A DNA stretch of 64,000 nt from Brachybacterium aquaticum (GTDB taxonomy: Bacteria; Actinomycetota; Actinomycetes; Actinomycetales; Dermabacteraceae), in assembly GCF_014204755.1 (NCBI RefSeq), contig NZ_JACHLZ010000001.1, positions 2,976,001 through 3,040,000 of the forward strand, given 5' to 3'. The notes under the pieces are model-generated. The model made no database searches, was not told the DNA's origin, and worked only from the letters and a program-made list of their open reading frames with translations. A program made the translations under genes and the position numbers. Positions 7,795 to 61,469 of this stretch are shown in pieces. The stretch's first letter is position 1; each line of letters begins with the position of its first letter.

Positions 7795-8514
7795 TTACTC
7801 GCTGATGCGCAGCAGCGGCGGGACCAGGCGCGTGCCCGTCCCGGCGCGGTAGAGCCGGGCGGGGCGGCCGCCGGTCGGGGCGGCGTGGCGGTCCAGCTCC
7901 ACGAGGAAGCCCTCGGTGCGGGTGGCCTTGCGGTGGAAGTTGCCGGCGTCCAGCGGGCGGCCCCACACGCTCTCGTACACCCCGCGCAGCTGAGAGACGG
8001 TGAACTCCCCGGGCAGGAAGGTGACCGCGAGGGTCGTGTACTCGAGCTTGGAACGGGCCCGCTCGATCGCGACCTCGAGCACGGCGGCGTGGTCGAAGGC
8101 GAGGGTGACATCGGCGAGGTCCGCCAGCGACCACCAGCGGGCGTCGGCCACGTCCTCGCCGCGCTCGGGGTCGGGCAGGTCCGCGCCGAGGGCCATGAAC
8201 GCCACCGACACGACGTGCCCGCGGGGGTCGCGGCCGGGGGTGCCGAAGGTGCGCACCTGCTCGAGGTGCACGGCGCCGGAGCCGAGCGAGGCCTCGTCGG
8301 CCAGCACCCGGTAGGCAGCACCGTCGAGATCCTCACCGTGGCGGACGAAGCCGCCGGGCAGCGCCCAGGCGCCGCGGTGGGGCTCGTCCTCGCGCTGGAT
8401 GAGCAGCACGCTGAGCGCACCGTCCCGCAGGGTCAGGACGATGAGGTCGACGGCGACGCGGATCTCGGGTGCGGTGCTGTCTGACGCGGTGCTCTCGGAC
8501 GCTGAGGCTTGCAT
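7795..8514 (-). CDS. Nudix-fold regulator with degenerate catalytic box (NrtR-like)
   Basis: The 239-residue protein has an N-terminal Nudix domain and a C-terminal winged-helix-like half (FTVSQLRGVYESVWGRPLDAGNFHRKA), the arrangement of NrtR regulators of NAD metabolism. The Nudix box reads GFVRHGEDLDGAAYRVLADE (about 55-74): the essential REUxEE core is RVLADE, lacking one catalytic glutamate and with Asp for another. It therefore probably senses ADP-ribose or a similar ligand without cleaving it. I chose ATG 8514; an in-frame ATG at 8571 would put the start inside the likely promoter. No NAD-biosynthesis gene is adjacent, so its target is open. Confidence 0.75.
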   Translation of the reverse strand: MQASASESTASDSTAPEIRVAVDLIVLTLRDGALSVLLIQREDEPHRGAWALPGGFVRHGEDLDGAAYRVLADEASLGSGAVHLEQVRTFGTPGRDPRGHVVSVAFMALGADLPDPERGEDVADARWWSLADLADVTLAFDHAAVLEVAIERARSKLEYTTLAVTFLPGEFTVSQLRGVYESVWGRPLDAGNFHRKATRTEGFLVELDRHAAPTGGRPARLYRAGTGTRLVPPLLRISE

Positions 8515-8637
8515 GTGTCCACGATAGACAGAGTTATGGTCACTTTGACACCAATAGGCGGGGTGACTCACAAGTAACGACCGAGCGCTCGCCCCGGCCG
8601 CCGTCGCGGCGGGACTCCGGTACCGCGCCTCACGACC

Positions 8638-9630
8638 TCAGCTCAGCCAGCGGTCCCACTTCTCGGCGCGGTGCTCGGCCTCGACCAGGCGCACGGTCCC
8701 TGAGTGCGAGCGCATGACGATCGACTGGGTGACGATGCGGTCGCCGCGGAAGCGGACCCCGTGCAGCAGGTCGCCCTCGGTGATGCCGGTGGCAGCGAAG
8801 TAGCAGTTGTCGGAGGTGACCAGGTCGTTGGTGGTGAGCACGCGGTCCAGCTCGTGGCCGGCGTCGATGGCCTTCTGCTTCTCGTCGTCGTCCGTGGGGG
8901 CCAGGCGCCCCTGGATCATGCCGCCGGTGGCCTTGACGGCGCAGGCGGCGATGATGCCCTCGGGGGTGCCGCCGGTGCCCAGCAGCATGTCGACCCCGGC
9001 GCCGCGGGCCGCGGCGATGGCGCCGGCGACGTCGCCGTCCATGATGAACTTGACGCGCGCGCCGGCGTCGCGGATCTCCTGCACCAGCGGCTCATGGCGG
9101 GGACGCTCGAGCACGCACACGGTGACCTGGGAGACGGGCTTGCCGAGCGCCTTGGCGACCAGGTGGATGTTCTGCTTGATCGGCAGGCGCAGGTCCACGA
9201 ACTCCGCGGCCTCGGGCCCGACCACCATCTTCTCCATGTAGAACACGGCCGAAGGGTCGTACATGCTGCCCTTCTCGGCGACCGCGAACACGGCGAGGGC
9301 GTTGTTGTAGCCCATGGCGGTCAGGCGGGTGCCGTCGATCGGGTCGACCGCGACGTCCACGTCCGGGCCGGTGCCGTCGCCGACGGCCTCGCCGTTGAAC
9401 AGCATCGGGGCCTCGTCCTTCTCACCCTCGCCGATGACGACGGTGCCGTTCATGCGCACGGTGTCCATGAAGGAGCGCATCGCGTCGACCGCGGCGCCGT
9501 CGGCCCGGTTCTTGTCCCCCGCGCCCACCCAGCGGGCGCCGGCGATGGCGGCGGCCTCGGTGACGCGCACCAGTTCGAGGGCGAGGTTGCGATCAGGGGC
9601 GGTGGTGGTGGTGGCGTCCGACGTGGGCAT
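8638..9630 (-). CDS. glpX: Fructose-1,6-bisphosphatase, class II
   Basis: The 330-residue enzyme hydrolyses fructose 1,6-bisphosphate to fructose 6-phosphate in gluconeogenesis. It shows all class II signatures: [20 protein letters not shown], the metal-binding [18 protein letters not shown], and [10 protein letters not shown]-type phosphate site ([18 protein letters not shown]). ATG 9630 is preceded by GGGAG at a suitable distance; the upstream frame to 9783 is only leader sequence. A TAGGCT box on the minus strand (9728-9723) could start an 86-base leader. Class II is the usual and often sole type in Actinobacteria. It appears monocistronic. Confidence 0.95.
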
Positions 9631-9982
9631 GGAGGTGTCTCCCTCGACTCGAGAACTGGGCGGCACTGGGGCCCCCGACCCGCCTGGGCGACAGGCCGAT
9701 CGGTGCCTGACGTGCACCTGCGAGCCTACCGGCCGCCCCGTCGGCCCGGAGGGACTCCCGGCGGATCGTCGCCGGGTCGTCACCGTCGGGTCGCCAGGCC
9801 GTCACCTGGGGGCGGCAATGCGATGCGAGCAATGGTCAGGAACGCAGCCACAACCAGCAGTTGTGGCGACGGCTCTCGCCACACCACTCGCCGCCGACAC
9901 TCCGCCGGCACCCCTCCGACCCCGGCGGGCATAGGCTTTCCCCGGCACAGCCGCCCCTGCTCCCCCGCGATCCGAGGTCACC
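9631..9982. other. Divergent promoter region glpX / aldo-keto reductase
   Basis: No gene is visible. Each direction has an identical TAGGCT -10-like hexamer: minus strand at 9728-9723 for glpX, plus strand at 9932-9937 for the reductase. A perfect dyad lies at 9847-9867 and one CCCGTCGGCC decamer at 9737. The rest is unremarkable G+C-rich sequence. Confidence 0.55.
9847..9867. promoter_or_regulatory. Perfect dyad GCCACAAC-N5-GTTGTGGC, candidate operator
   Basis: Eight-base arms GCCACAAC and GTTGTGGC are separated by CAGCA. The dyad lies about 65 bases upstream of the likely -10 of the aldo/keto reductase gene. The spacing fits a dimeric regulator site, but no regulator is adjacent. Confidence 0.45.
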
Positions 9983-10918
9983 ATGAAGCAGTTCACCATG
10001 CCGCACACCGACATCACCGCCCCGAACGTGGTGCTCGGCCTGATGCGCATCGCCGAGAAGTCCGACGAGGAGATCCGCACCCTCGTGGGTGCCGCGCGCG
10101 ACGCGGGCATCGACTTCTTCGACCACGCCGACATCTACGGTTGCGAGGTGCACCTGTGCGAGAGGCGGTTCGCGGAGGCGCTGCAGCTGAGCCCCTCCGA
10201 GCGCGAGCAGGTGACCATCCAGTCCAAGGCCGGGATCGTCACCGACGGCCCCTATTTCGACTACTCCCGCGAGCACATCGTCGCCGCGGCCGAGGGCTCG
10301 CTGCGCGCGCTGGGCACCGACTACCTCGACATCCTGCTGCTGCACCGCCCCGATGCGCTGGTGGAGCCCGAGGAGGTCGCCGCCGCGTTCGACGAGCTGC
10401 ACGCGGCCGGGAAGGTGCGCCACTTCGGCGTCTCCAACCACACCCCGCGCCAGATCGATCTGCTCGCGAAGCACGTGAACCAGCCGATCGTCGCCAACCA
10501 GCTGCAGCTGTCGATCACGCACTCGACGATCATCGCCCAGGGCGTCGCGTCGAACATGCAATCCACCGAGCAGTCGCTCGTGCGCGACGGCGGCGGGATC
10601 CTGGACTACTGCCGCCTGCACGACATCACGGTGCAGGCCTGGTCCCCGTTCCAGGCCCGCTTCTTCGACGGCGTGTTCCTCGGACACCCGGAGTACGCGG
10701 AGCTGAACACCGTGATCGACCGGCTCGCGGCGAAGTACGAGGTAGCTCCCGAGGCGATCGCGACCGCCTGGATCACCCGCCACCCCGCACAGATGCAGGT
10801 CGTGCTCGGCACCACCACCCCGCAGCGCGTCGCCGATGCGGCCGCCGGCTCCGAGATCCCGCTGACGCGACCGGAGTGGTACGAGCTGTTCCGCGCCGCC
10901 GGCTGGATCGTGCCCTGA
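9983..10918 (+). CDS. Aldo/keto reductase (YdhF-like)
   Basis: The 311-residue (alpha/beta)8-barrel enzyme reduces aldehydes or ketones with NADPH. Motifs in order: GLMRIAEKSDEEIRTLVGAA, the catalytic Asp/Tyr region FFDHADIYG, the catalytic Lys in TIQSKAG, the LLHRPD strand and VRHFGVSNHTPRQI. The sequence NQLQLSITHS and the C-terminal VLGTTTPQRVADAA complete the cofactor pocket. It resembles the YdhF group; the physiological substrate is unknown. ATG 9983 follows GATCCGAGGTCACC. It stands alone. Confidence 0.88.
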   Translation: MKQFTMPHTDITAPNVVLGLMRIAEKSDEEIRTLVGAARDAGIDFFDHADIYGCEVHLCERRFAEALQLSPSEREQVTIQSKAGIVTDGPYFDYSREHIVAAAEGSLRALGTDYLDILLLHRPDALVEPEEVAAAFDELHAAGKVRHFGVSNHTPRQIDLLAKHVNQPIVANQLQLSITHSTIIAQGVASNMQSTEQSLVRDGGGILDYCRLHDITVQAWSPFQARFFDGVFLGHPEYAELNTVIDRLAAKYEVAPEAIATAWITRHPAQMQVVLGTTTPQRVADAAAGSEIPLTRPEWYELFRAAGWIVP

Positions 10919-53449: not shown

Positions 53450-53661
53450 GGCATCTCCCGGGGAGAGTGGAGGGTGGTCATGTCCCGTGCGCCTGCAGCG
53501 GGGTGCGGCCATCCTGGGCTCTCGTCCCCCGGACACGAAGGCCGGGAGGGCGCCGTGACCGTTCCGTGATGTGGCGTCCCAGGGGTGGGCGGGGGCTTCT
53601 ACGATGCGGAGCTGAGCCGTCGCCGAGCCCCACCGGCTCCCGAGCAGAGGAGCACTCCCCC

Positions 53662-54207
53662 ATGGCCTGGACCCCCACCGCCGAGGACGACCGCCGCTTC
53701 CTCGCCCTCGCCATCGAGCAGGCGCGCACCAGCTGGGACGAGGGCGGGGTGCCGATCGGTGCCGTGCTCGTCCACGACGGGCAGGTGCTCGGCGCCGGGC
53801 ACAACCAGCGCGTCCAGAAGGACTCCGCGATCCTGCACGGCGAGACCGACGCGATCGAGAAGGCCGGGCGTCTGCGCGCGAGCGTATACCGGGAGTCGGT
53901 GCTGTACACGACCCTGTCGCCGTGCATCATGTGCTCCGGCACCGCGCTGCTGTACGAGATCCCGCGGATCGTGGTGGGCGAGAACCGCACCTTCGAGATG
54001 GCCGAGGACCTGCTGCGCGAGCGCGGCGTCACCGTGGACGTGCTCGACGACCCCGACTGCATCGCGCTGATGGAGCGGATGATCGCCGAGCGGCCCGAGA
54101 TCTGGAGCGAGGACATCGGCGTGGAGACGGGCGAGCTCAGCGCGTCGGCCGACGGCGCGCGCGCTGCCGGCGCCGAGGGCTCCGACGTCGACGGCGCCGG
54201 CCGGTGA
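53662..54207 (+). CDS. Cytosine deaminase, fungal (CDA-fold) type
   Basis: The 181-residue zinc enzyme deaminates cytosine to uracil. Zinc ligands are H59 in ILHGETDAIEKAGR (with catalytic E61), C88 and C91 in TTLSPCIMCSG; the following YEIPRIVVGENRTFEMAEDL matches yeast cytosine deaminase rather than the bacterial CodA amidohydrolase. A TACGAT box at 53600-53605 is the likely -10. It overlaps the cytosine permease gene by four bases (GTGA), confirming a cytosine salvage operon. The last 25 residues are low-complexity. Confidence 0.9.
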   Translation: MAWTPTAEDDRRFLALAIEQARTSWDEGGVPIGAVLVHDGQVLGAGHNQRVQKDSAILHGETDAIEKAGRLRASVYRESVLYTTLSPCIMCSGTALLYEIPRIVVGENRTFEMAEDLLRERGVTVDVLDDPDCIALMERMIAERPEIWSEDIGVETGELSASADGARAAGAEGSDVDGAGR

Positions 54208-55487
54208 CCGCGGCCGAGCTGCGCCAGGAGGCGGGCACCGAGCCCGTCGACCCCGACTACCCGGTCACTCCGGTCCCCGCCTCGGCGCGGCGCGGTGTCG
54301 TCTCGATCTCGGTGGTGCTGATCGGGTTCACCGTCTTCGCGCCGACGCTCATGGCCGGCGCCTCCATCGGCGCGGCCTTCCGCTTCAGCGAGTTCCTGGC
54401 CGTGCTGCTGGTGGGCTCGGTGGTGCTCGGCGCGTACGTCGCCGCGATCGGCTTCCTCGGCGCCCGCACCGGTCTGACCACGGTGGTGATGTCGAGGTAC
54501 ACCTTCGGCACCGCCGGGTCGAAGCTGGTCTCGGTGCTGCTGGGCGGCACGCAGATCGGCTGGTACGGGGTGGCGGTCGGCTCGATCGGGCAGATGACCG
54601 CGCTCGCCTTCGGCTGGGAGAGCGCCTGGGCGCCGGCGCTGGTGATGATCGGGGTCTCCGCCCTGATGATGCTCACGGCGCTGTACGGCTACGAGGGCAT
54701 GTACTGGGTCTCGCTGATCTCCACGCCGCTGATCCTGGTGCTCGCCTTCTGGATCACCGCGCTCGCGCTCACCGAGGTGGGCGGCTGACGGGGCCTGTTC
54801 GACATCGCGCCCACCACCTCCATGACCTGGGCCGCGGCCGTGACGACCGTGGTGGGCACCTTCGCCTCCGCCGGGACGCAGGCCGCGAACTGGACCCGCT
54901 TCGCGAAGCGCGGCCGCGACGCCGTGATCGCCTGCGGGCTCGGCTTCGTGATCGGCAACGGGCTGATGGTGTTCTTCGGCGCCGTCTCCGCGCTGGCCTT
55001 CGGAGAAGGCGACTTCACCACGCTGCTGCTGGGCATGGGCATGATCGGCTGGGGCCTGTTCTTCCTGTTCGGGAACCTGTGGAAGTCCAACGCCGATGCC
55101 GCCTACGCCTTCGGCGTCGCCGGGGCCGAGCTCGCGAACGCCCGGCGCAAGGGCCCCTTCATCATCGGCGGCGTCGCCATCGGCACCGTGCTCGCGCTGC
55201 TCGGCGTCGAGGGGCACATCGTGGGCTACCTCAGCCTCATCGGCATCCTCATCCCGCCGGTCGGCGGGGTGCTCATCGGCGACTGGATCGCTCGCTGGCG
55301 CGGCGGGCAGCCGGCCCTGTCCACGCTGACCGAGAAGGTGCGCTGGCAGGCGCTCGTGCCGTACGTGCTCGGCTGCGTGGTGGCGTGGGTGAGCAATGAG
55401 TACGGGATCGGCATCGCGCCGCTGACCGGGATCGTGGTGGCGCTGGTGGGGGCGTGGGTGCTGGGGGTGCGGGCGGGGCGACGCTGA
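54204..55487 (+). pseudogene. codB: Cytosine permease interrupted by one in-frame TGA
   Basis: GTG 54204 opens a frame that encodes a CodB/NCS1 permease: RRGVVSISVVLIGFTVFAPT, GARTGLTTVVMSRYTFGTAG, GGTQIGWYGVAVGSIGQMTA, up to LALTEVGG, then TGA at 54786-54788. In the same frame the family sequence resumes immediately (RGLFDIAPTTSMTWAAAVTT, GTFASAGTQAANWTRFAKRG) and runs to 55487. Without the stop the protein would be 427-428 residues, normal for CodB with about 12 helices. So a single nonsense change or read error splits the gene. An ATG at 54822 could restart translation of the second half, but that would lack the first helices. Confidence 0.85.
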
Positions 55488-55524: not shown

Positions 55525-56388
55525 TCAGCCCCAGGCGCCGCCCTCGCCGTCGGTGAGCGGGAGCGTGCCCGCGGCGCGGTGGCGCTCGTACAGCTCGCGC
55601 AGGTGATCCCGGTACTCCGGATCGTCACCGGCCGGCTCCATCGGCGGGAGCGCGGCGAGGAGCTGGTCGGCGATCTGGTCGCGGTCCCACCAGGCGGGGA
55701 TCATGACGCCCGCGAACTCGCGGGCCGTCCTCTGCACGTCCTCGAGCGAGGTGGACAGGATCAGATCCGAGGTCGTCACCTGGAGCGGGTCGCCCGGCAT
55801 CTCCGACTCCCGGCCGACGTGCAGGCGGACGTGAAGCCCGTCGGGCGCCCATGTCACCGCGAAGCGGGTCCGGTGATAGCCGCGGTCGTGCAGGGCGATG
55901 ACGCCGTCCAGGATCTGCAGGAGGAAGCCGGTGCCGACCAGGGCGGGCAGTGATGCGGCGCTCGCGACGAGGTCGTCGTAGAGGGCGACGGGCATCGGCA
56001 CCTCGAAGTAGTGCTTCTCCCGCTTCTGCTCGATCCTCTCGCGGAGCTGGTCCCCCGCGAGGTCGAGGATCCTTATCGCCGACGGGTCCGCCGAGCGGAC
56101 GTTCGTGACGAGGTAGAGGTGCGCGGCGGGATCCGTCTCGAAGGCCTCGACCTGGTTGGGCTCGAGCCACAGGAAGTCGCCGCGGCCGGCGCCGCCGAAG
56201 GCCTTGATCTCGATCAGGCGCTTCTCACCGGTGGTGTCGTCGAAGGACTCGACATCGACCAGGGCGTCCTTCTTGCTGCGCAGGTCGACGGCCATCCGTC
56301 CAGCAGCGCGCTCGTAGGCGATCACGGCCTCGATGGCTCGGGCCTCGATCTCGTGGTTGGACAGCTTCAGCAGGTCCGCCTGGTTCAT
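55525..56388 (-). CDS. DUF3883-domain protein, nuclease-like
   Basis: The 287-residue product has an N-terminal DUF3883 domain: EARAIEAVIAYERAAGRMAV, then DALVDVESFDDTTGEKRLIE, IKAFGGAGRGDFLWLEPNQV, AHLYLVTNVRSADPSAIRIL. The D..(6-20)..E-x-K pattern (IEIKAFG) is that of PD-(D/E)xK nucleases. The C-terminal 150 residues (for example HRTRFAVTWAPDGLHVRLHV) are not recognised. DUF3883 proteins are frequent in restriction and defence islands. ATG 56388 precedes the conserved start MNQADLLKLSNHEIEARAIE. It diverges from the Nudix-helicase operon. Confidence 0.75.
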   Translation of the reverse strand: MNQADLLKLSNHEIEARAIEAVIAYERAAGRMAVDLRSKKDALVDVESFDDTTGEKRLIEIKAFGGAGRGDFLWLEPNQVEAFETDPAAHLYLVTNVRSADPSAIRILDLAGDQLRERIEQKREKHYFEVPMPVALYDDLVASAASLPALVGTGFLLQILDGVIALHDRGYHRTRFAVTWAPDGLHVRLHVGRESEMPGDPLQVTTSDLILSTSLEDVQRTAREFAGVMIPAWWDRDQIADQLLAALPPMEPAGDDPEYRDHLRELYERHRAAGTLPLTDGEGGAWG

Positions 56389-56531
56389 GGCGTGATCATG
56401 ACAGAGGGGGCCGACGGCCGCCGGTCGAAGATCCACATGCCATGCGCCTCGAGACACTTGAGAACCCTCGCTTCCCCAGCCGCGGCACCTCTCGACCCTC
56501 GGCTTTCGCTGCGCATGTCACCGCCGCTTCG

Positions 56532-56537
56532 TACGAT
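56532..56537 (+). promoter_or_regulatory. -10 box of the Nudix-helicase operon
   Basis: TACGAT lies 35 bases before the GTG start 56572, giving a start near 56544 and a leader that contains the GAGGAGA ribosome site at about 56556. The -35 region is not clear. Confidence 0.45.
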
Positions 56538-56571
56538 CGACGGTGTCGGCCCAGGCAGAGGAGATTGCGCG

Positions 56572-57000
56572 GTGGAGAATCCAGTCATCCGAGTCGTCGG
56601 CGCCATCGTCGAACGAAACGGCGCGGTCTTCGCCGCTCGACGCAACGCCGAGCGCAGCGCCGGCGGGCTGTGGGAATTCCCCGGGGGCAAGATCGAAACC
56701 GGCGAGACGCCCGAGGCCGCACTGCGCCGCGAACTTCAGGAGGAGCTGGGTGTCGACGTCGCTGTTGGCCCGTTCGTCGACCGGAGCCTGAGCGATGTTG
56801 GCACCGCGCGCATCGAGCTCTCCTGCTACGCCGCGCAGTTCACGGGCGAGGATCCGACTACCAGCAGCGACCACGACGCGATGCAGTGGGTGCCTCTCAC
56901 GGAGTTGTCCTCGCTGCAATGGGCGCCTGGCGATGTCCCACTCCTCGAGGGCTTGCCAGAGCGGCTCGCAACTCTCCGCGACGAGTCCAAGGCGAAGTGA
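56572..57000 (+). CDS. MutT-type Nudix pyrophosphohydrolase
   Basis: The 142-residue enzyme has a complete Nudix box at residues 39-61 (GKIETGETPEAALRRELQEE then LGV), with all catalytic glutamates, and the MutT-like LWEFPGG lead-in and QWVPLTEL tail. It probably cleans oxidised or unusual nucleoside triphosphates such as 8-oxo-dGTP. GTG 56572 follows GAGGAGA at eight bases. Its stop TGA shares one base with the helicase start (TGATG), so the two are co-translated. The pairing of this Nudix with a DUF3427 helicase argues for a joint DNA repair or defence task. Confidence 0.85.
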   Translation: MENPVIRVVGAIVERNGAVFAARRNAERSAGGLWEFPGGKIETGETPEAALRRELQEELGVDVAVGPFVDRSLSDVGTARIELSCYAAQFTGEDPTTSSDHDAMQWVPLTELSSLQWAPGDVPLLEGLPERLATLRDESKAK

Positions 57001-60000
57001 TGGAGGCGCAGCCGGCCCTGGATCCCGGCCTCTACGAACTGCTCCTCACCACGGGCCTCACTGATGCGGTGCAGTCGACCGAAGAGCAGGGCTTCCTCAC
57101 TCCGACGGAGGACGTGGACGACGCGGATGTCGTGCATGTCCTCTCCCAGCACGTCGCACGAACCGTCGAGCAGGCGTTGAAGACTGCACCCCGTGAGGAG
57201 CGCATCGCCCTCGCGAACCGTCTCCTCTCGGCTTTGCCCTCCACTGCCCCGGATCCCGAAGTGTCTCCTGGGCCGCGCCTTCTCACCTCGGTGACGCCAC
57301 CGGAGACACCCCTCCTGCCCCGTCCGTCGACACCGCTCAGCGACGTCGCGCTCTTCACGAACTCACGAATGGATCCGCAGCTCGGCTCGGAACTGCGCCT
57401 CGAGATGGGGAGCGCGGATCGGATTGACCTGCTGTGCGCGTTTGTGCAGTGGAGCGGGATCCGCGTGCTGGAATCGGCCTTGCGCGAGGCGGCTGATCGC
57501 GGAGTGCCCATCCGGGTTCTGACCACCACGTATATCGGTGCCACGGACCGGAAGGCGCTGGACTACTTCGTGCGCTCACTGAACGCCGAGGTGCGGGTCA
57601 ACTACGACGCGCAGTCCACCCATCTCCACGCGAAGGCGTGGATGTTCCATCGGTCCAGCGGTTACACCACCGCGTATGTGGGCAGCTCGAACATGAGCCG
57701 GGCAGCGCTCGTCGACGGACTAGAATGGAACGTCCGTCTCTCGCACCTCGCGACCCCGAGCCTGGTCGACAAGTTTGAGTCGACCTTCGAGACCTACTGG
57801 GACGACGCGGCGTTTGCGCCGTACAACCCAGACACCGACGCCGAATTCCTCGATGCACTCCTCGCGAAGAACAGCGGCCGCGCCACCTCGACAGACCTGT
57901 CGATCAGCCATCTCGACGTACGTCCATACCCGCACCAAACAGAGATGCTGGATGACCTCGCCGCCGAGCGGGAGGTGCACGATCGACGCCGCAACCTGCT
58001 TGTCGCGGCAACAGGCACGGGCAAGACCGTGGTTGCCGCGCTCGACTACAAGCGCTTGCAGACATCGGACGCCGACCAACCGACCATCCTCTTTGTCGCG
58101 CACCGCAAGGAGATCCTCGAGCAGTCCCTGAGGACCTACCGCGACGTGCTGAAGGACGGCGCGTTCGGGGAACTGTTCGTCGACGGGCGGAAGCCCATCC
58201 GGCGGCGCCATGTCTTCGCCTCGATCCAGTCGCTGCAGCAAGCCGGCGAGCTCGAGCGATGGGCGCGCGACCACTTCGACATCATCGTCATCGACGAGTT
58301 CCATCATGCCGAGGCGGCGACGTACCGAAAGGTCCTCGACCACTTCACCCCCAGAGCACTCCTTGGGCTCACCGCGACACCCGAGCGGGCCGACGGGGTG
58401 GACGTGTCCCAAGCGTTTTTCGAGGGTCGCGTGGCGAGCGAGCTGCGGCTGTGGGACGCGCTCCGCGCCGACCTGCTTGTGCCTTTCCACTACTTCGGGA
58501 TCGCCGACGGAGTGGACCTCAGCGGGATGCGATTCACTCGCGGTGCGTACAACATTGACCAGCTGAACAGCTTGTACACCGGCAACGATGCTCGAGCCGC
58601 AAAGGTGCTTCAGGCCCTGCGTGACAAGGTCACCGACCCGAGTCGAATGAGAGCGCTCGGGTTCTGCGTCAGTGTCGAGCACGCCCATTACATGGCCGAG
58701 GTGTTCCGTCGCGCAGGTCTCCCCTCGCTTGCACTCAGCGGCGCTTCCGGGTCCGATGTGCGACAGGAGGGGCTCGCGAAGCTACGGCGCGGCGAGATCG
58801 TGTGCCTGTTCGCCGTCGACCTCTTCAACGAGGGCCTCGACATCCCGATGATCGACACGGTCCTCATGCTGCGCCCCACGCAGTCCGCCACAATCTTCCT
58901 CCAACAGCTGGGCCGCGGGCTCCGTCGAGCGGACAACAAGGCCGTACTCACCGTGCTCGACTTCGTCGGCCTCCAGCACACGAACTTCCGCTTCGACCTG
59001 AAGTACCGCGCGCTGACCGGGCTCTCCCGGAACAAGCTCGAGCGGAGCATCCGGGACGGATTTCCGTTTCTCCCTCCTGGAACGCAGATCGTCTTCGACC
59101 GCGTCGCACAGGACATCGTGCTGTCGAACGTGAAGAAGCAACTCAAGCTGTCCACGCGTGACTTGGTGGCAGACGTTCGTCAGCACAAGCCGGCCGACGC
59201 TACCCCTGTGGACTACGGCTTGGGCTCGTACCTGCACTCGGCAGAGCGGTCCCTCGCTGACATCTACGGACCGGGGACGCGCAGCTTGAACAGCCAGAAG
59301 CGTTCTGCGAGCTGGTCCACTCTCGTGGACTGGGCCTTCCCTGCCAGCCGAACGAAAGATTTGACGGAAGCAGCCGACGCGCTCCTTCGACGACTCGTCA
59401 CGCTGACCCACGTCGACGATCCGGAGCGGATTCAGGCGTATCGCCGGCTGCTTACGGCACCGTCTCTCCCCTCAGCTGTCGAGACGGACCTCTACGCAGC
59501 GATGCTCGTGTACTCCTTCTGGCCTACTGGCGAGCGGAGCATCCGCGAAGGACTCGAGCAGCTGCGTTCCCATCCCGTTGTCGTGAAGGAGATCCTCCAG
59601 CTGCTGACGTACCTAGAGCAGTCCTCGAGAGTGCGACCGGAGGCACTGACGGGCTCTGTCGCGCGCTCTCCGCTGCGATCGCACGCGAGTTACTCGCGCG
59701 AGGAACTTCTGGCCGGACTGGGGCTTGGCACTCTAGATACCGGCGCGCCGGGCTCGATTCGCGAAGGCGTGAAGTGGTTGCCCAGCATGAGCGTGGACGC
59801 CTTGCTGGTGACGCTGAAGAAGTCAGAAGCGGACTACTCCCCCACCACCATGTACCGCGACTACGCGATCAACCAGGAGCTCTTCCACTGGGAGTCCCAG
59901 AGCACGACAAGCGTGGAGAGTCGCACTGGTCAGCGATACATCAACCACGCCTCGCGGGGTTCAAGCGTCGTACTCTTCGTTCGGCGCGCGAAGACAGGCG

Positions 60001-60140
60001 ACATCGGCACCGAGCCCTACACGTGCCTCGGCATAGCGCAGTTCCAGCAGGCGACGGGGTCACGGCCAATGCAGATCGTGTGGCGGCTAGACCGGACGAT
60101 GCCGGCTGACCTGTTCATGGAAGCTCGGGCGGTGGCGTAA
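57000..60140 (+). CDS. SF2 helicase with N-terminal HKD (PLD) nuclease and DUF3427
   Basis: The 1046-residue protein combines three parts. Residues about 110-280 form a phospholipase-D-like HKD nuclease with H210-x-K212 and GSSN (228-231). Residues 300-660 are an SF2 helicase: Walker A ATGTGKT (337-343), DEFH box (432-435), LTATP (457-461) and motif VI QQLGRGLRR (635-643). Residues from about 680 to the end match DUF3427. Only one HKD copy is present, so it may dimerise. Related proteins occur in defence islands. Base composition and codon use are visibly less G+C-biased than in the neighbours, suggesting transfer. It converges on the acyltransferase with a 9-bp gap. Confidence 0.9.
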   Translation: MEAQPALDPGLYELLLTTGLTDAVQSTEEQGFLTPTEDVDDADVVHVLSQHVARTVEQALKTAPREERIALANRLLSALPSTAPDPEVSPGPRLLTSVTPPETPLLPRPSTPLSDVALFTNSRMDPQLGSELRLEMGSADRIDLLCAFVQWSGIRVLESALREAADRGVPIRVLTTTYIGATDRKALDYFVRSLNAEVRVNYDAQSTHLHAKAWMFHRSSGYTTAYVGSSNMSRAALVDGLEWNVRLSHLATPSLVDKFESTFETYWDDAAFAPYNPDTDAEFLDALLAKNSGRATSTDLSISHLDVRPYPHQTEMLDDLAAEREVHDRRRNLLVAATGTGKTVVAALDYKRLQTSDADQPTILFVAHRKEILEQSLRTYRDVLKDGAFGELFVDGRKPIRRRHVFASIQSLQQAGELERWARDHFDIIVIDEFHHAEAATYRKVLDHFTPRALLGLTATPERADGVDVSQAFFEGRVASELRLWDALRADLLVPFHYFGIADGVDLSGMRFTRGAYNIDQLNSLYTGNDARAAKVLQALRDKVTDPSRMRALGFCVSVEHAHYMAEVFRRAGLPSLALSGASGSDVRQEGLAKLRRGEIVCLFAVDLFNEGLDIPMIDTVLMLRPTQSATIFLQQLGRGLRRADNKAVLTVLDFVGLQHTNFRFDLKYRALTGLSRNKLERSIRDGFPFLPPGTQIVFDRVAQDIVLSNVKKQLKLSTRDLVADVRQHKPADATPVDYGLGSYLHSAERSLADIYGPGTRSLNSQKRSASWSTLVDWAFPASRTKDLTEAADALLRRLVTLTHVDDPERIQAYRRLLTAPSLPSAVETDLYAAMLVYSFWPTGERSIREGLEQLRSHPVVVKEILQLLTYLEQSSRVRPEALTGSVARSPLRSHASYSREELLAGLGLGTLDTGAPGSIREGVKWLPSMSVDALLVTLKKSEADYSPTTMYRDYAINQELFHWESQSTTSVESRTGQRYINHASRGSSVVLFVRRAKTGDIGTEPYTCLGIAQFQQATGSRPMQIVWRLDRTMPADLFMEARAVA

Positions 60141-60149
60141 GCGGACGCG

Positions 60150-61469
60150 CTAGGGCCGGGTCGCCGATGTCCTCTGGCCTGCGACTGCCACCACCCCGAA
60201 CATCCACATCCCCGCCACCGGCAGCAGCGGCCACCACCAGGTCACGCCGCTCTCCCCCACCACGCCCACGGACGCCATCACGGCGAGGCCCGCGATCACG
60301 CACACCGCTGCGGCGATCGGCTTCCACACGGGCGGCGCAGGGCGGTCGTCGGCGCGCGGTGTCTCGAAGCGGCCCATCACCAGCACCACGAGGCCCGTCA
60401 GAGCGAGCAGCACGAACACCCACAACGGCCGCGTCACCCACCACATCCCCGTCAGCGGCTCGGGCAGCAGCACCCGCGCATCGAGCGCGAGCAGCAGATG
60501 GGCGAGGCCCACCATGACCGTGAGGTGCCACAAGAACCAGGTCATGATCCGCTGGTTCACGAGCACGGTGACGAACCACAGCCTCGGCCGGCGCAGCAGG
60601 GCCTCGAGCGGCTTCTCCAGCGAGAGCACGAGCCCGGCCTGGAGCATGCCGAGGAACGCCATCGTCACGCGCGTCGGGCTCGAGTTGGAGATCGCATCTC
60701 CCCCGGCAGTGATCATCGAGAGCGGATAAGGGCCCACCAGCACGAGTAGCAGGAGGCCGACCAGACCGATCCCGGCCAGCAGCATCCGTCGGTCCATGCC
60801 GGAGAGCCGGCCGTCGAGCCAGGCGTAGCCGACCTGGTGGAACGCCGCCCAGACGAGCAGGTAGTTCGGGTAGCCGAGCAGCGGCTGGTCGGCGGCGATG
60901 CTGGTCGCGTCGACGATCCCGGCGAGCGCGATGCCGCCCACGATCGACCACCACCCGAAGCGCTCCCACAGCCACAGGCACGGCGGGCCCACGAGGATCA
61001 CCATCAGGTACGCAGCGAGGAACCAGCTGGGGATCAGCGCCATCTGCGAGGCGAGCTGCACGGTCGCCGTCGGCGCCCCCGCCCGAACGGCGACCACCCC
61101 GATCACGAGCCAGGCGAGCAGCAGCGGGATCAGCGGGATCCCGAGGCGTCGGAGCCTCGTGCGCAGCCATTCCGCGTAGCCGATCTCCTTGCGCCTCGCG
61201 GAGCGCCAGGAGAGGCCGTTGGAGTAGCCGCCGACGAGGAAGAAGATCGGCATCACCTGGAACGCCCAGGTCAGCGGGTGCGTCCACCTCGCGCCGTCGA
61301 GGACGCCGTGCGGGAGGACCCCGCCGTCGGGGTCGACGGCGATGATCGTCCAGTGCCCGAGGACCACCACGGTGATCGCCGCGGCGCGGAGGAAGTCGAC
61401 CACGCGATTACGGCTCGCGGGCGTCGCGGCGTCGACCTTCTCGGCGCGGCTCGGGCGCGTGCTCGTCAT
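60150..61469 (-). CDS. Membrane acyltransferase (acyltransferase 3 family)
   Basis: The 439-residue protein has about 10-11 membrane helices and the family start RNRVVDFLRAAAITVVVLGH with the catalytic His, followed by FQVMPIFFLVGGYSNGLSWR and RTRLRRLGIPLIPLLLAWLV. Members transfer acyl groups (O-acetyl, succinyl) to sugars, peptidoglycan or lipids at the membrane. ATG 61469 has GAGGGGA upstream; the longer open frame to 62342 lies antisense to the methyltransferase. Target unknown. Confidence 0.88.
   Translation of the reverse strand: MTSTRPSRAEKVDAATPASRNRVVDFLRAAAITVVVLGHWTIIAVDPDGGVLPHGVLDGARWTHPLTWAFQVMPIFFLVGGYSNGLSWRSARRKEIGYAEWLRTRLRRLGIPLIPLLLAWLVIGVVAVRAGAPTATVQLASQMALIPSWFLAAYLMVILVGPPCLWLWERFGWWSIVGGIALAGIVDATSIAADQPLLGYPNYLLVWAAFHQVGYAWLDGRLSGMDRRMLLAGIGLVGLLLLVLVGPYPLSMITAGGDAISNSSPTRVTMAFLGMLQAGLVLSLEKPLEALLRRPRLWFVTVLVNQRIMTWFLWHLTVMVGLAHLLLALDARVLLPEPLTGMWWVTRPLWVFVLLALTGLVVLVMGRFETPRADDRPAPPVWKPIAAAVCVIAGLAVMASVGVVGESGVTWWWPLLPVAGMWMFGVVAVAGQRTSATRP

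Follow-up and report, generated by a model that had tools for sequence, protein, structure and literature searches.

Type IV restriction enzymes attack modified DNA and, to our knowledge, have no self-protecting methyltransferase; how modified cytosine is kept out of the DNA of their own hosts is, as far as we know, a question rarely asked. SauUSI of Staphylococcus aureus, the protein of structure 7CLG, is described as an ATP-requiring enzyme that reads S-5mC-NGS sites carrying 5-methylcytosine (5mC, m5C) or 5-hydroxymethylcytosine (5hmC), translocates, and shreds the DNA between sites (PMC7913695, PMC3874153). Its nuclease motif is given as H(X)K(X)4E and its target-recognition domain as an SRA fold with a modelled pocket of Y831, F841, I842, W868 and D858 (PMC7913695); Nudix, MutT and operon go unmentioned in that structure paper (PMC7913695). 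Among Nudix hydrolases, NudG is listed as a 5-methyl-dCTP pyrophosphatase (PMC5389931), with a reported kcat/Km of 3x10^5 M-1 s-1 on this nucleotide (PMC3744803), and 5-methyl-dCTP is the substrate on which MutT2 is said to have its highest activity (PMC10742078). Proteins of the two kinds have been seen together. In Streptococcus, a figure legend identifies small “DNA repair” proteins adjoining SauUSI homologues as MutT homologues (PMC7641849), and in Streptococcus suis the candidate system PDC-S07 and Type IV restriction-modification are given as the sole consistently co-localised pair (23/23) of 24 that co-occur (PMC12813430). As far as listings and passages of the open full-text literature show, no paper links a Nudix enzyme to SauUSI or to Type IV restriction by mechanism. 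In this report, we describe a locus of Brachybacterium aquaticum, lying in a 64-kb stretch of its genome, a single contig of 3.45 Mb (NZ_JACHLZ010000001.1, positions 2,976,001 to 3,040,000; “the window”, in whose positions coordinates are given), at which the gene of a Nudix hydrolase (P0002) overlaps that of a SauUSI-like protein (P0003) and is divergent from a gene of DUF3883 type (P0001).

P0003 (57000-60140, plus strand; 1046 residues) is matched from residue 108 to residue 1044, a full-length match, by the PADLOC model mREase_IV (PDLC03659, 1081 bits), and its closest solved structure by sequence is 7clg (1.6e-88). The single chain presents, in the order that marks a SauUSI-type enzyme, a PLD-family nuclease domain (PLDc_2, PF13091, 3.4e-12; residues 158-267, 57471-57800), an SF2 helicase-like ATPase (57921-58925; ResIII, residues 308-463, PF04851, 2.6e-37; Helicase_C, residues 540-642, PF00271, 2.5e-12; Walker lysine K342) and a C-terminal DUF3427/SRA-type target-recognition domain (residues 889-1040, 59664-60119; PF11907, 9.9e-18, the match spanning just model positions 124-277 of 280), all on the plus strand; SauUSI has the same order, with a coupler ahead of the reader. 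Alignment to the SauUSI protein of locus L293 (loci, L, and genomes, G, carry our own numbers) places the catalytic H119 and K121 of SauUSI on H210 and K212 of P0003 (57627-57635), the HxK being kept. Position E126 of SauUSI is variable among 13 aligned sequences, and P0003 carries His there. The SRA residues D858 and W868 are retained as D954 and W964, whereas the other pocket positions differ, with I, L and V in place of Y831, F841 and I842, and G in place of M829. P0003 further differs from SauUSI in having some 90 extra residues before the nuclease motif, and in falling within PDLC03659 whereas SauUSI lies on the side of PDLC03658. An AlphaFold model of P0003, built with 29 SauUSI-like relatives (mean predicted local distance difference test score, pLDDT, 63; uneven in the SRA-type domain, with block means of 37-78), retrieves 7clg first in Foldseek (E 3.4e-46; 952 alignment columns; 22-23% identical); TM-scores are just 0.39-0.49 and the root-mean-square deviation is large. 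Because SauUSI-like relatives went into its building, this model is no independent test of the fold. Judged by these matches, P0003 is very probably a SauUSI-type (5-methylcytosine-dependent) Type IV restriction enzyme, and its homology to SauUSI predicts ATP-dependent cleavage of DNA that carries 5mC or 5hmC.

The first-pass annotation, made from the sequence alone, had suspected a defence locus here, and P0003 is indeed of a known defensive kind; comparison with a defence-system database (PADLOC) returned mREase_IV for it and PDC-S07 for the Nudix protein. The structure that the annotation described, with a divergent DUF3883-type gene, an intact Nudix box, a TGATG overlap and a 1046-residue helicase-nuclease with a DUF3427 tail, is confirmed. 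Its HKD nuclease is a PLD nuclease domain as supposed, the motif being HxK (H210, K212) and not a full HKD.

The Nudix gene (56572-57000, plus strand) starts with GTG by our reading of the sequence, the translation used having begun at 56584, and its stop codon overlaps the ATG of the P0003 gene by the one shared base of TGATG. P0002 matches the Nudix domain (PF00293, 1.1e-22), has an intact Nudix box (GX5EX7REUXEEXGU; residues 35-57, 56686-56754) and is matched over its length by PDC-S07 (PDLC04899, 141 bits). Its best NCBIfam model is NudG (PRK10546.1), at 102 bits against a cut-off of 156, with MutT models at 76-77 bits (148 being the cut-off for the one at 77); because the NudG cut-off is not reached, we term P0002 NudG-like, not NudG. 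The closest solved relatives are 5x1x, NudG (2rrk) and MutT2 (5zrc). Thus, E. coli NudG (Orf135) and mycobacterial MutT2 are by sequence the nearest characterised Nudix enzymes, although P0002 groups with neither of them in the Nudix tree discussed below. The activity of these relatives predicts that P0002 hydrolyses 5-methyl-dCTP. All 74 SauUSI-linked Nudix sequences labelled have Asp at the NudG PAD position, a weak pointer, since this Asp is present in other relatives too (e.g. 3r03); E. coli MutT presumably has Asn there. PDC-S07 is catalogued as a stand-alone candidate system, whereas P0002 pairs with a Type IV enzyme. The PDC-S07 model also matches an unlinked NudG-like paralogue (L217, 119 bits), and 99% of Enterobacter genomes are said to carry PDC-S07 (PMC12851794). 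The model is therefore not specific to the module, and PDC-S07 probably counts housekeeping NudG as defence.

The pairing extends far beyond the window. A broad scan, for which we used an alignment headed by the SauUSI-like protein of L062, yielded at least 563 loci, and the counts that follow rest on the best 80 of these. The scan did not select for Nudix genes, because its search patterns lie in the helicase, yet the query locus does itself carry one. In 72 of the 80 loci, a Nudix gene of the P0002 family lies within 400 bp of the SauUSI-like gene (40 on its 5' side and same strand, 23 on its 3' side and same strand, 9 on its 3' side and convergent), and in one more it lies at 1051 bp. These 73 loci come from Bacillota (48), Bacteroidota (12), Methanobacteriota (6), Actinomycetota (3), Pseudomonadota (3) and Bathyarchaeota (1). 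Seven loci have no Nudix gene; five of them end 700 bp or less from the nuclease gene on at least one side, both flanks being present only in L133 and L157. Additional Nudix genes are rare in flanks of up to 5 kb on each side, with a second one in L160 (at 936 bp) and one on either side of the gene in L117. The Nudix box pattern is intact in 77/77 SauUSI-linked sequences, in 11/11 from the window's genus (P0002 included) and in 6/7 that are linked to the HNH nucleases considered below.

In Staphylococcus, 30 of 61 genomes carry a SauUSI-type enzyme, and in 29 of the 30 loci the Nudix gene stands 5' of the nuclease gene; four of these 29 genes (L282, L287, L302 and L305) are partial or contain a stop. 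The exception, L306, is a pseudogene interrupted by many stops; its 5' side is covered for no more than about 130 bp, which makes it uninformative on linkage. The protein of L293 matches 7clg without a difference over 952 residues, and just 4 bp separate the matched Nudix stretch, which is 5', from that of the nuclease; therefore, the characterised SauUSI also has a Nudix partner. In the window's genus, the enzyme is present, whole or in part, in 13 of 38 genomes. Among the 12 congeneric loci other than that of the window, 10 have the Nudix gene 3-18 bp upstream and two end at the 5' edge of the nuclease gene; in one of the two genomes concerned, the Nudix gene sits with the other piece of the nuclease gene on another contig (L215). 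No SauUSI-like gene without a Nudix gene was found among the evaluable loci of the genus. The reverse arrangement, a Nudix locus with no whole SauUSI-like gene, occurs in seven of its genomes: G002, G004, G026 (as a second copy), G029, G030, G032 (twice) and G034. The Nudix gene had been put forward as a possible conserved neighbour of the helicase gene, and such it is, in 72/80 SauUSI-like loci, 29/30 staphylococcal loci and 10/10 evaluable congeneric loci. We conclude firmly that Nudix and Type IV nuclease genes form a two-gene unit, both for SauUSI-like enzymes generally and for the window's genus.

One of these seven genomes is G034 (L213, 6726-10628). Between its Nudix gene and the last part of its SauUSI-like gene lie the genes of a NaeI-type nuclease (8161-9087, plus strand; PF09126, 1e-110) and a C5 methyltransferase (9156-10289, minus strand). 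Here, an m5C-making system stands in the former place of an m5C-dependent nuclease, and the Nudix gene has been kept. The Nudix frame of L213 continues from a frame that resembles ribokinase by eye. The orphan Nudix genes of L208 and L210 adjoin a polyphosphate kinase look-alike, also recognised by eye, with no restriction enzyme recognised, and that of L207 a transposase look-alike, again by eye.

In a Nudix tree of 124 proteins, the genes of the window's genus group with unlinked paralogues of its order (support 92). A second group, also with support 92, joins the Nudix genes of the SauUSI-like clade to NudG, 3r03, 5x1x and two unlinked genes. A single clade uniting the SauUSI-linked Nudix genes with those of the genus loci (SauUSI-like-linked, HNH-linked and orphan) is rejected by the approximately unbiased (AU) test (p 0.0005), which was made after the Nudix tree had been seen, on a quick tree, and with groups defined by gene context. 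Among 122 nucleases placed in a tree by FastTree, those of the genus are nested inside a clade without linked Nudix genes. That one tree, with L117 (Nudix on both sides) scored as 5', requires at least four changes of linkage and, among linked genes, a switch of side or strand on at least 10 occasions. Given these separate Nudix groupings and the repeated rearrangement, the link was probably made more than once and was retained as gene order changed. Repeated linkage that is kept through rearrangement is the pattern expected from selection for the pair.

The same Nudix family has a second partner, located outside the window. It adjoins an HNH_2 protein in four congeneric loci (L206, L209, L211 and L212), and in L227-L229, which hold HNH relatives from another genus, the Nudix gene is directly upstream as well. 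The profile of this HNH family aligns by hhalign with SRA-HNH endonucleases such as TagI and ScoA3IV, co-linearly through the SRA and HNH parts (probability 75%, E 2.5e-5). By sequence, the match of these proteins to TagI reaches E 0.11 and covers the HNH part only; a Pfam search of them found HNH_2 only and no SRA domain, and their profile against the SauUSI-like alignment gave nothing significant. Because Pfam detects no SRA domain, we label the family merely SRA-HNH-like. The Nudix-linked HNH_2 protein, whose N-terminal domain is probably SRA-like, is a probable second reader of modified DNA. Within the sequence covered, 30 loci of the HNH family comprise five with a Nudix gene (L220, L224, L227, L228 and L229), three with a SauUSI-like neighbour (L219, L235 and L236) and the rest with neither. 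HNH relatives directly adjoin SauUSI-like genes in L098/L219, L085/L236 and L235.

We propose the following mechanism. P0003 would recognise 5-methyl- or 5-hydroxymethylcytosine in incoming DNA, translocate with the help of ATP and shred that DNA. 5-Methyl-dCTP could then arise in the host, either from the shredded DNA or from turnover of its own DNA, and its incorporation would create P0003 target sites in the host chromosome. By hydrolysing 5-methyl-dCTP (possibly 5-hydroxymethyl-dCTP and dCTP too) to the monophosphate, the Nudix enzyme would prevent this incorporation. It would thereby assume the role that the methyltransferase has in ordinary restriction-modification, with self-protection achieved by cleaning the nucleotide pool and not by marking DNA. 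What the analysis shows is the family of each protein, the linkage with its breadth and its repeated rearrangement, and the separateness of the Nudix genes of the genus from those of the SauUSI-like clade; the substrate of the enzyme, the origin of that substrate and the self-protective role are what we infer. Cleaning of 5-methyl-dCTP would account for the Nudix family involved, for the second probable reader of modified DNA, for the kept active site and for the asymmetry by which, among the evaluable loci of the genus, the Nudix gene alone is found without the other. We regard it as evenly balanced whether the locus is indeed a two-gene Type IV module in which the Nudix enzyme destroys 5-methyl-dCTP for self-protection. 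The more general statement, that SauUSI-type restriction is a nuclease-antidote pair that purges 5-methyl-dCTP, a solution reached at least twice and, in the genus, also with an SRA-HNH-like nuclease, is tentative, and we give it somewhat less than an even chance.

Several observations weigh against these proposals, and we gather them here. One is that none of 29 same-clade homologues outside the genus has a linked Nudix gene (L072 being covered only to its 3' end), a fact that the mechanism by itself leaves unexplained. The first-pass annotation had taken homologues that mostly lack the Nudix gene as fatal to its idea; this is what we see in the close clade outside the genus, with 0/29 linked, and the opposite of what we see for SauUSI-like enzymes at large, with 72/80 and 29/30 linked. 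Nor do any of three longer variants have a linked Nudix gene; these (L079, L080 and L081) are DUF3427 helicase-nucleases of about 1330 residues on a separate branch of the nuclease tree. Of 13 genomes of the order with such unlinked enzymes (G057, with a partial gene, was excluded), six have an unlinked Nudix relative at E<=1e-18 and seven have none, and because of these seven the nuclease must be able to exist without the Nudix enzyme. The homologues outside the genus may be enzymes with narrower targets, or their cells may have another cleaner, of which MazG- and DCTPP1-like enzymes are examples. In the broad scan, L157 has flanks without a Nudix gene, and its genome is without a relative at 1e-10. 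Of the 30 HNH loci, 25 are without a Nudix gene within the sequence covered, as are the SRA-HNH loci found by a PF02182 search (L307-L309) in the sequence covered. With regard to the substrate, P0002 is below the cut-off of every one of the 25 NCBIfam families listed, and MutT2 (5zrc), on a long branch, falls outside the P0002 group in the Nudix tree, together with seven other unlinked genes.

A further difficulty is that the window's genome encodes, side by side, a protein with a FokI cleavage domain, a C5 methyltransferase and Vsr (L214; G000:C1, about 414.8-418.2 kb). Given this methyltransferase, host DNA may contain m5C; this genome probably methylates cytosine at some sites despite its SauUSI-type enzyme, and, unless one of the two is silent, the methyltransferase must act at sites that P0003 leaves uncut. 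We considered whether C5 methyltransferases and the enzyme exclude each other and set the idea aside: the direction is the expected one in two genera and is not significant in either, with a methyltransferase in 3/13 genomes with the enzyme versus 14/25 without it in the window's genus (p 0.086) and in 6/30 versus 10/31 in Staphylococcus (p 0.38). An “intact only” version of the methyltransferase comparison, which gave p 0.07, was chosen after the data had been seen.

Two other functions for the Nudix enzyme must be weighed against self-protection. It could be a second attack on phage, draining the 5-hydroxymethyl- or 5-methyl-dCTP pool of cytosine-replacing phages, with the nuclease left to cut DNA in which the modification is already present. 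This calls for the same chemistry and fits the same linkage data, and a review suggests that phage might be detected by a host once the CTP pool has been converted to 5hmdCTP (PMC12707154). However, draining modified dCTP would reduce the very modification on which the nuclease depends, and the finding that the genus has Nudix genes without the nuclease, but no evaluable nuclease gene without Nudix, fits protection better; we consider an attack on the phage pool unlikely. Alternatively, the enzyme could be a generic MutT-like house-cleaner that acts, for example, on oxidised nucleotides and is linked to the nuclease for reasons other than methylcytosine, a restraint on mutation while cuts are repaired being one such reason. 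Some linked Nudix proteins do obtain nearly equal scores from the MutT and NudG models (that of L062, at 93 and 90 bits, respectively, weighs against our own reading too), and the Asp at the NudG PAD position is shared with structures such as 3r03. On the other side, the host has other Nudix genes, its genome giving 15 NUDIX matches with P0002 included, and the linkage to SauUSI-like genes has survived at least 10 changes of arrangement and, in the genus, also involves a second probable reader of modified DNA. A generic house-cleaner strikes us as slightly less likely than an attack on the phage pool.

Two further alternatives concern the make-up of the module. P0003 might be a RadD-like repair helicase instead of a restriction enzyme: RadD is the next best fold after SauUSI and is among the top NCBIfam matches, and by sequence only 7clg and a Type I R subunit precede it in the PDB. 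That NCBIfam match, though, is far below the cut-off (99 bits versus 720), and both it and the fold match cover the helicase core only, whereas SauUSI matches end to end, with the nuclease and two SRA residues kept; the patchy distribution of the gene, in 13 of the 38 genomes of the genus, also speaks against a repair role, which we hold to be extremely improbable. The other alternative is that the DUF3883 gene, the Nudix gene and the helicase-nuclease gene make up one three-gene system. In its favor, homologues of P0001 are found close to the module in L097, L102 and, as a partial match, L100; in L209, one lies roughly 5 kb away from the Nudix-HNH pair. Among the scanned loci L061-L218, these four congeneric loci and that of the window are the only ones with such a homologue, and the DUF3883 gene has a native composition, with a G+C content at third codon positions (GC3) of 0.94 versus 0.81 in both the Nudix and the P0003 genes. 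A three-gene system is thus very improbable, and the first-pass suggestion of DUF3883 as a third component does not hold; the gene is probably no part of the Nudix-nuclease unit.

The composition of the locus sets the pair apart. The G+C content is 0.644 in the P0003 gene and 0.679 in the Nudix gene versus 0.70 in the DUF3883 gene; the two measured flanks have 0.71-0.72, and the GC3 of two flanking genes is 0.95-0.97. The 40 commonest decamers of the window occur at 2.5 per kb in the P0003 gene versus 11.2 per kb elsewhere. The acquired look attributed to the helicase gene is thus borne out for the Nudix-nuclease pair in G+C and GC3 and for the P0003 gene in decamer scarcity, and, given the low GC3 of its two genes and the native GC3 of the DUF3883 gene, the foreign-looking unit is the pair alone. 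The decamer CCCGTCGGCC (both strands counted) occurs 42 times in the 64 kb, overlapping forms are nearly as frequent, and the P0003 gene is poor in such words.

Around the pair, the DUF3883 gene (P0001; 55525-56388, minus strand) encodes a protein that matches NOV_C (PF13020, 33 bits, 5.5e-08), which we take to be the former DUF3883. Against solved structures, P0001 gave a single match that is not credible (E 0.19), and a single-protein AlphaFold model of it (mean pLDDT 39) was discarded. The divergent intergenic region between it and the Nudix gene (56389-56571) is the probable promoter region of the pair. Beyond the DUF3883 gene, 53659-55487 holds a deaminase-like frame, identified by reading, and a cytosine/purine permease (PF02133); a permease look-alike frame flanks the module in L097 also, and a similar one lies near the Nudix gene in L206 (by eye). 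These neighbours may relate to methylcytosine salvage or may simply mark the insertion site. On the other side of the module is an acyltransferase gene (60150-61460), look-alikes of which, judged by predicted protein start, occur near SauUSI-like or HNH-Nudix loci of several congeners (L097, L098, L099, L100 and L209); their recurrence suggests a shared insertion site.

The operon thus belongs to a known restriction family and has a conserved partner, one whose role is unexplained in the literature searched and whose adjacency has been remarked twice in passing. If our proposal is correct, SauUSI of S. aureus, the best-studied member of the family, was studied without its partner, and the NudG of E. 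coli, the usual cloning host, could have masked the effect of the missing Nudix enzyme. The nuclease would be predicted to be toxic where 5-methyl-dCTP is present and the Nudix enzyme absent. The proposal would further explain the presence of PDC-S07 in defence loci and give a reason for the Nudix gene beside a well-known staphylococcal barrier to gene transfer. Finally, a partner that cleans the nucleotide pool would represent a further route to self-protection, alongside the marking of DNA and the simple absence of the mark.

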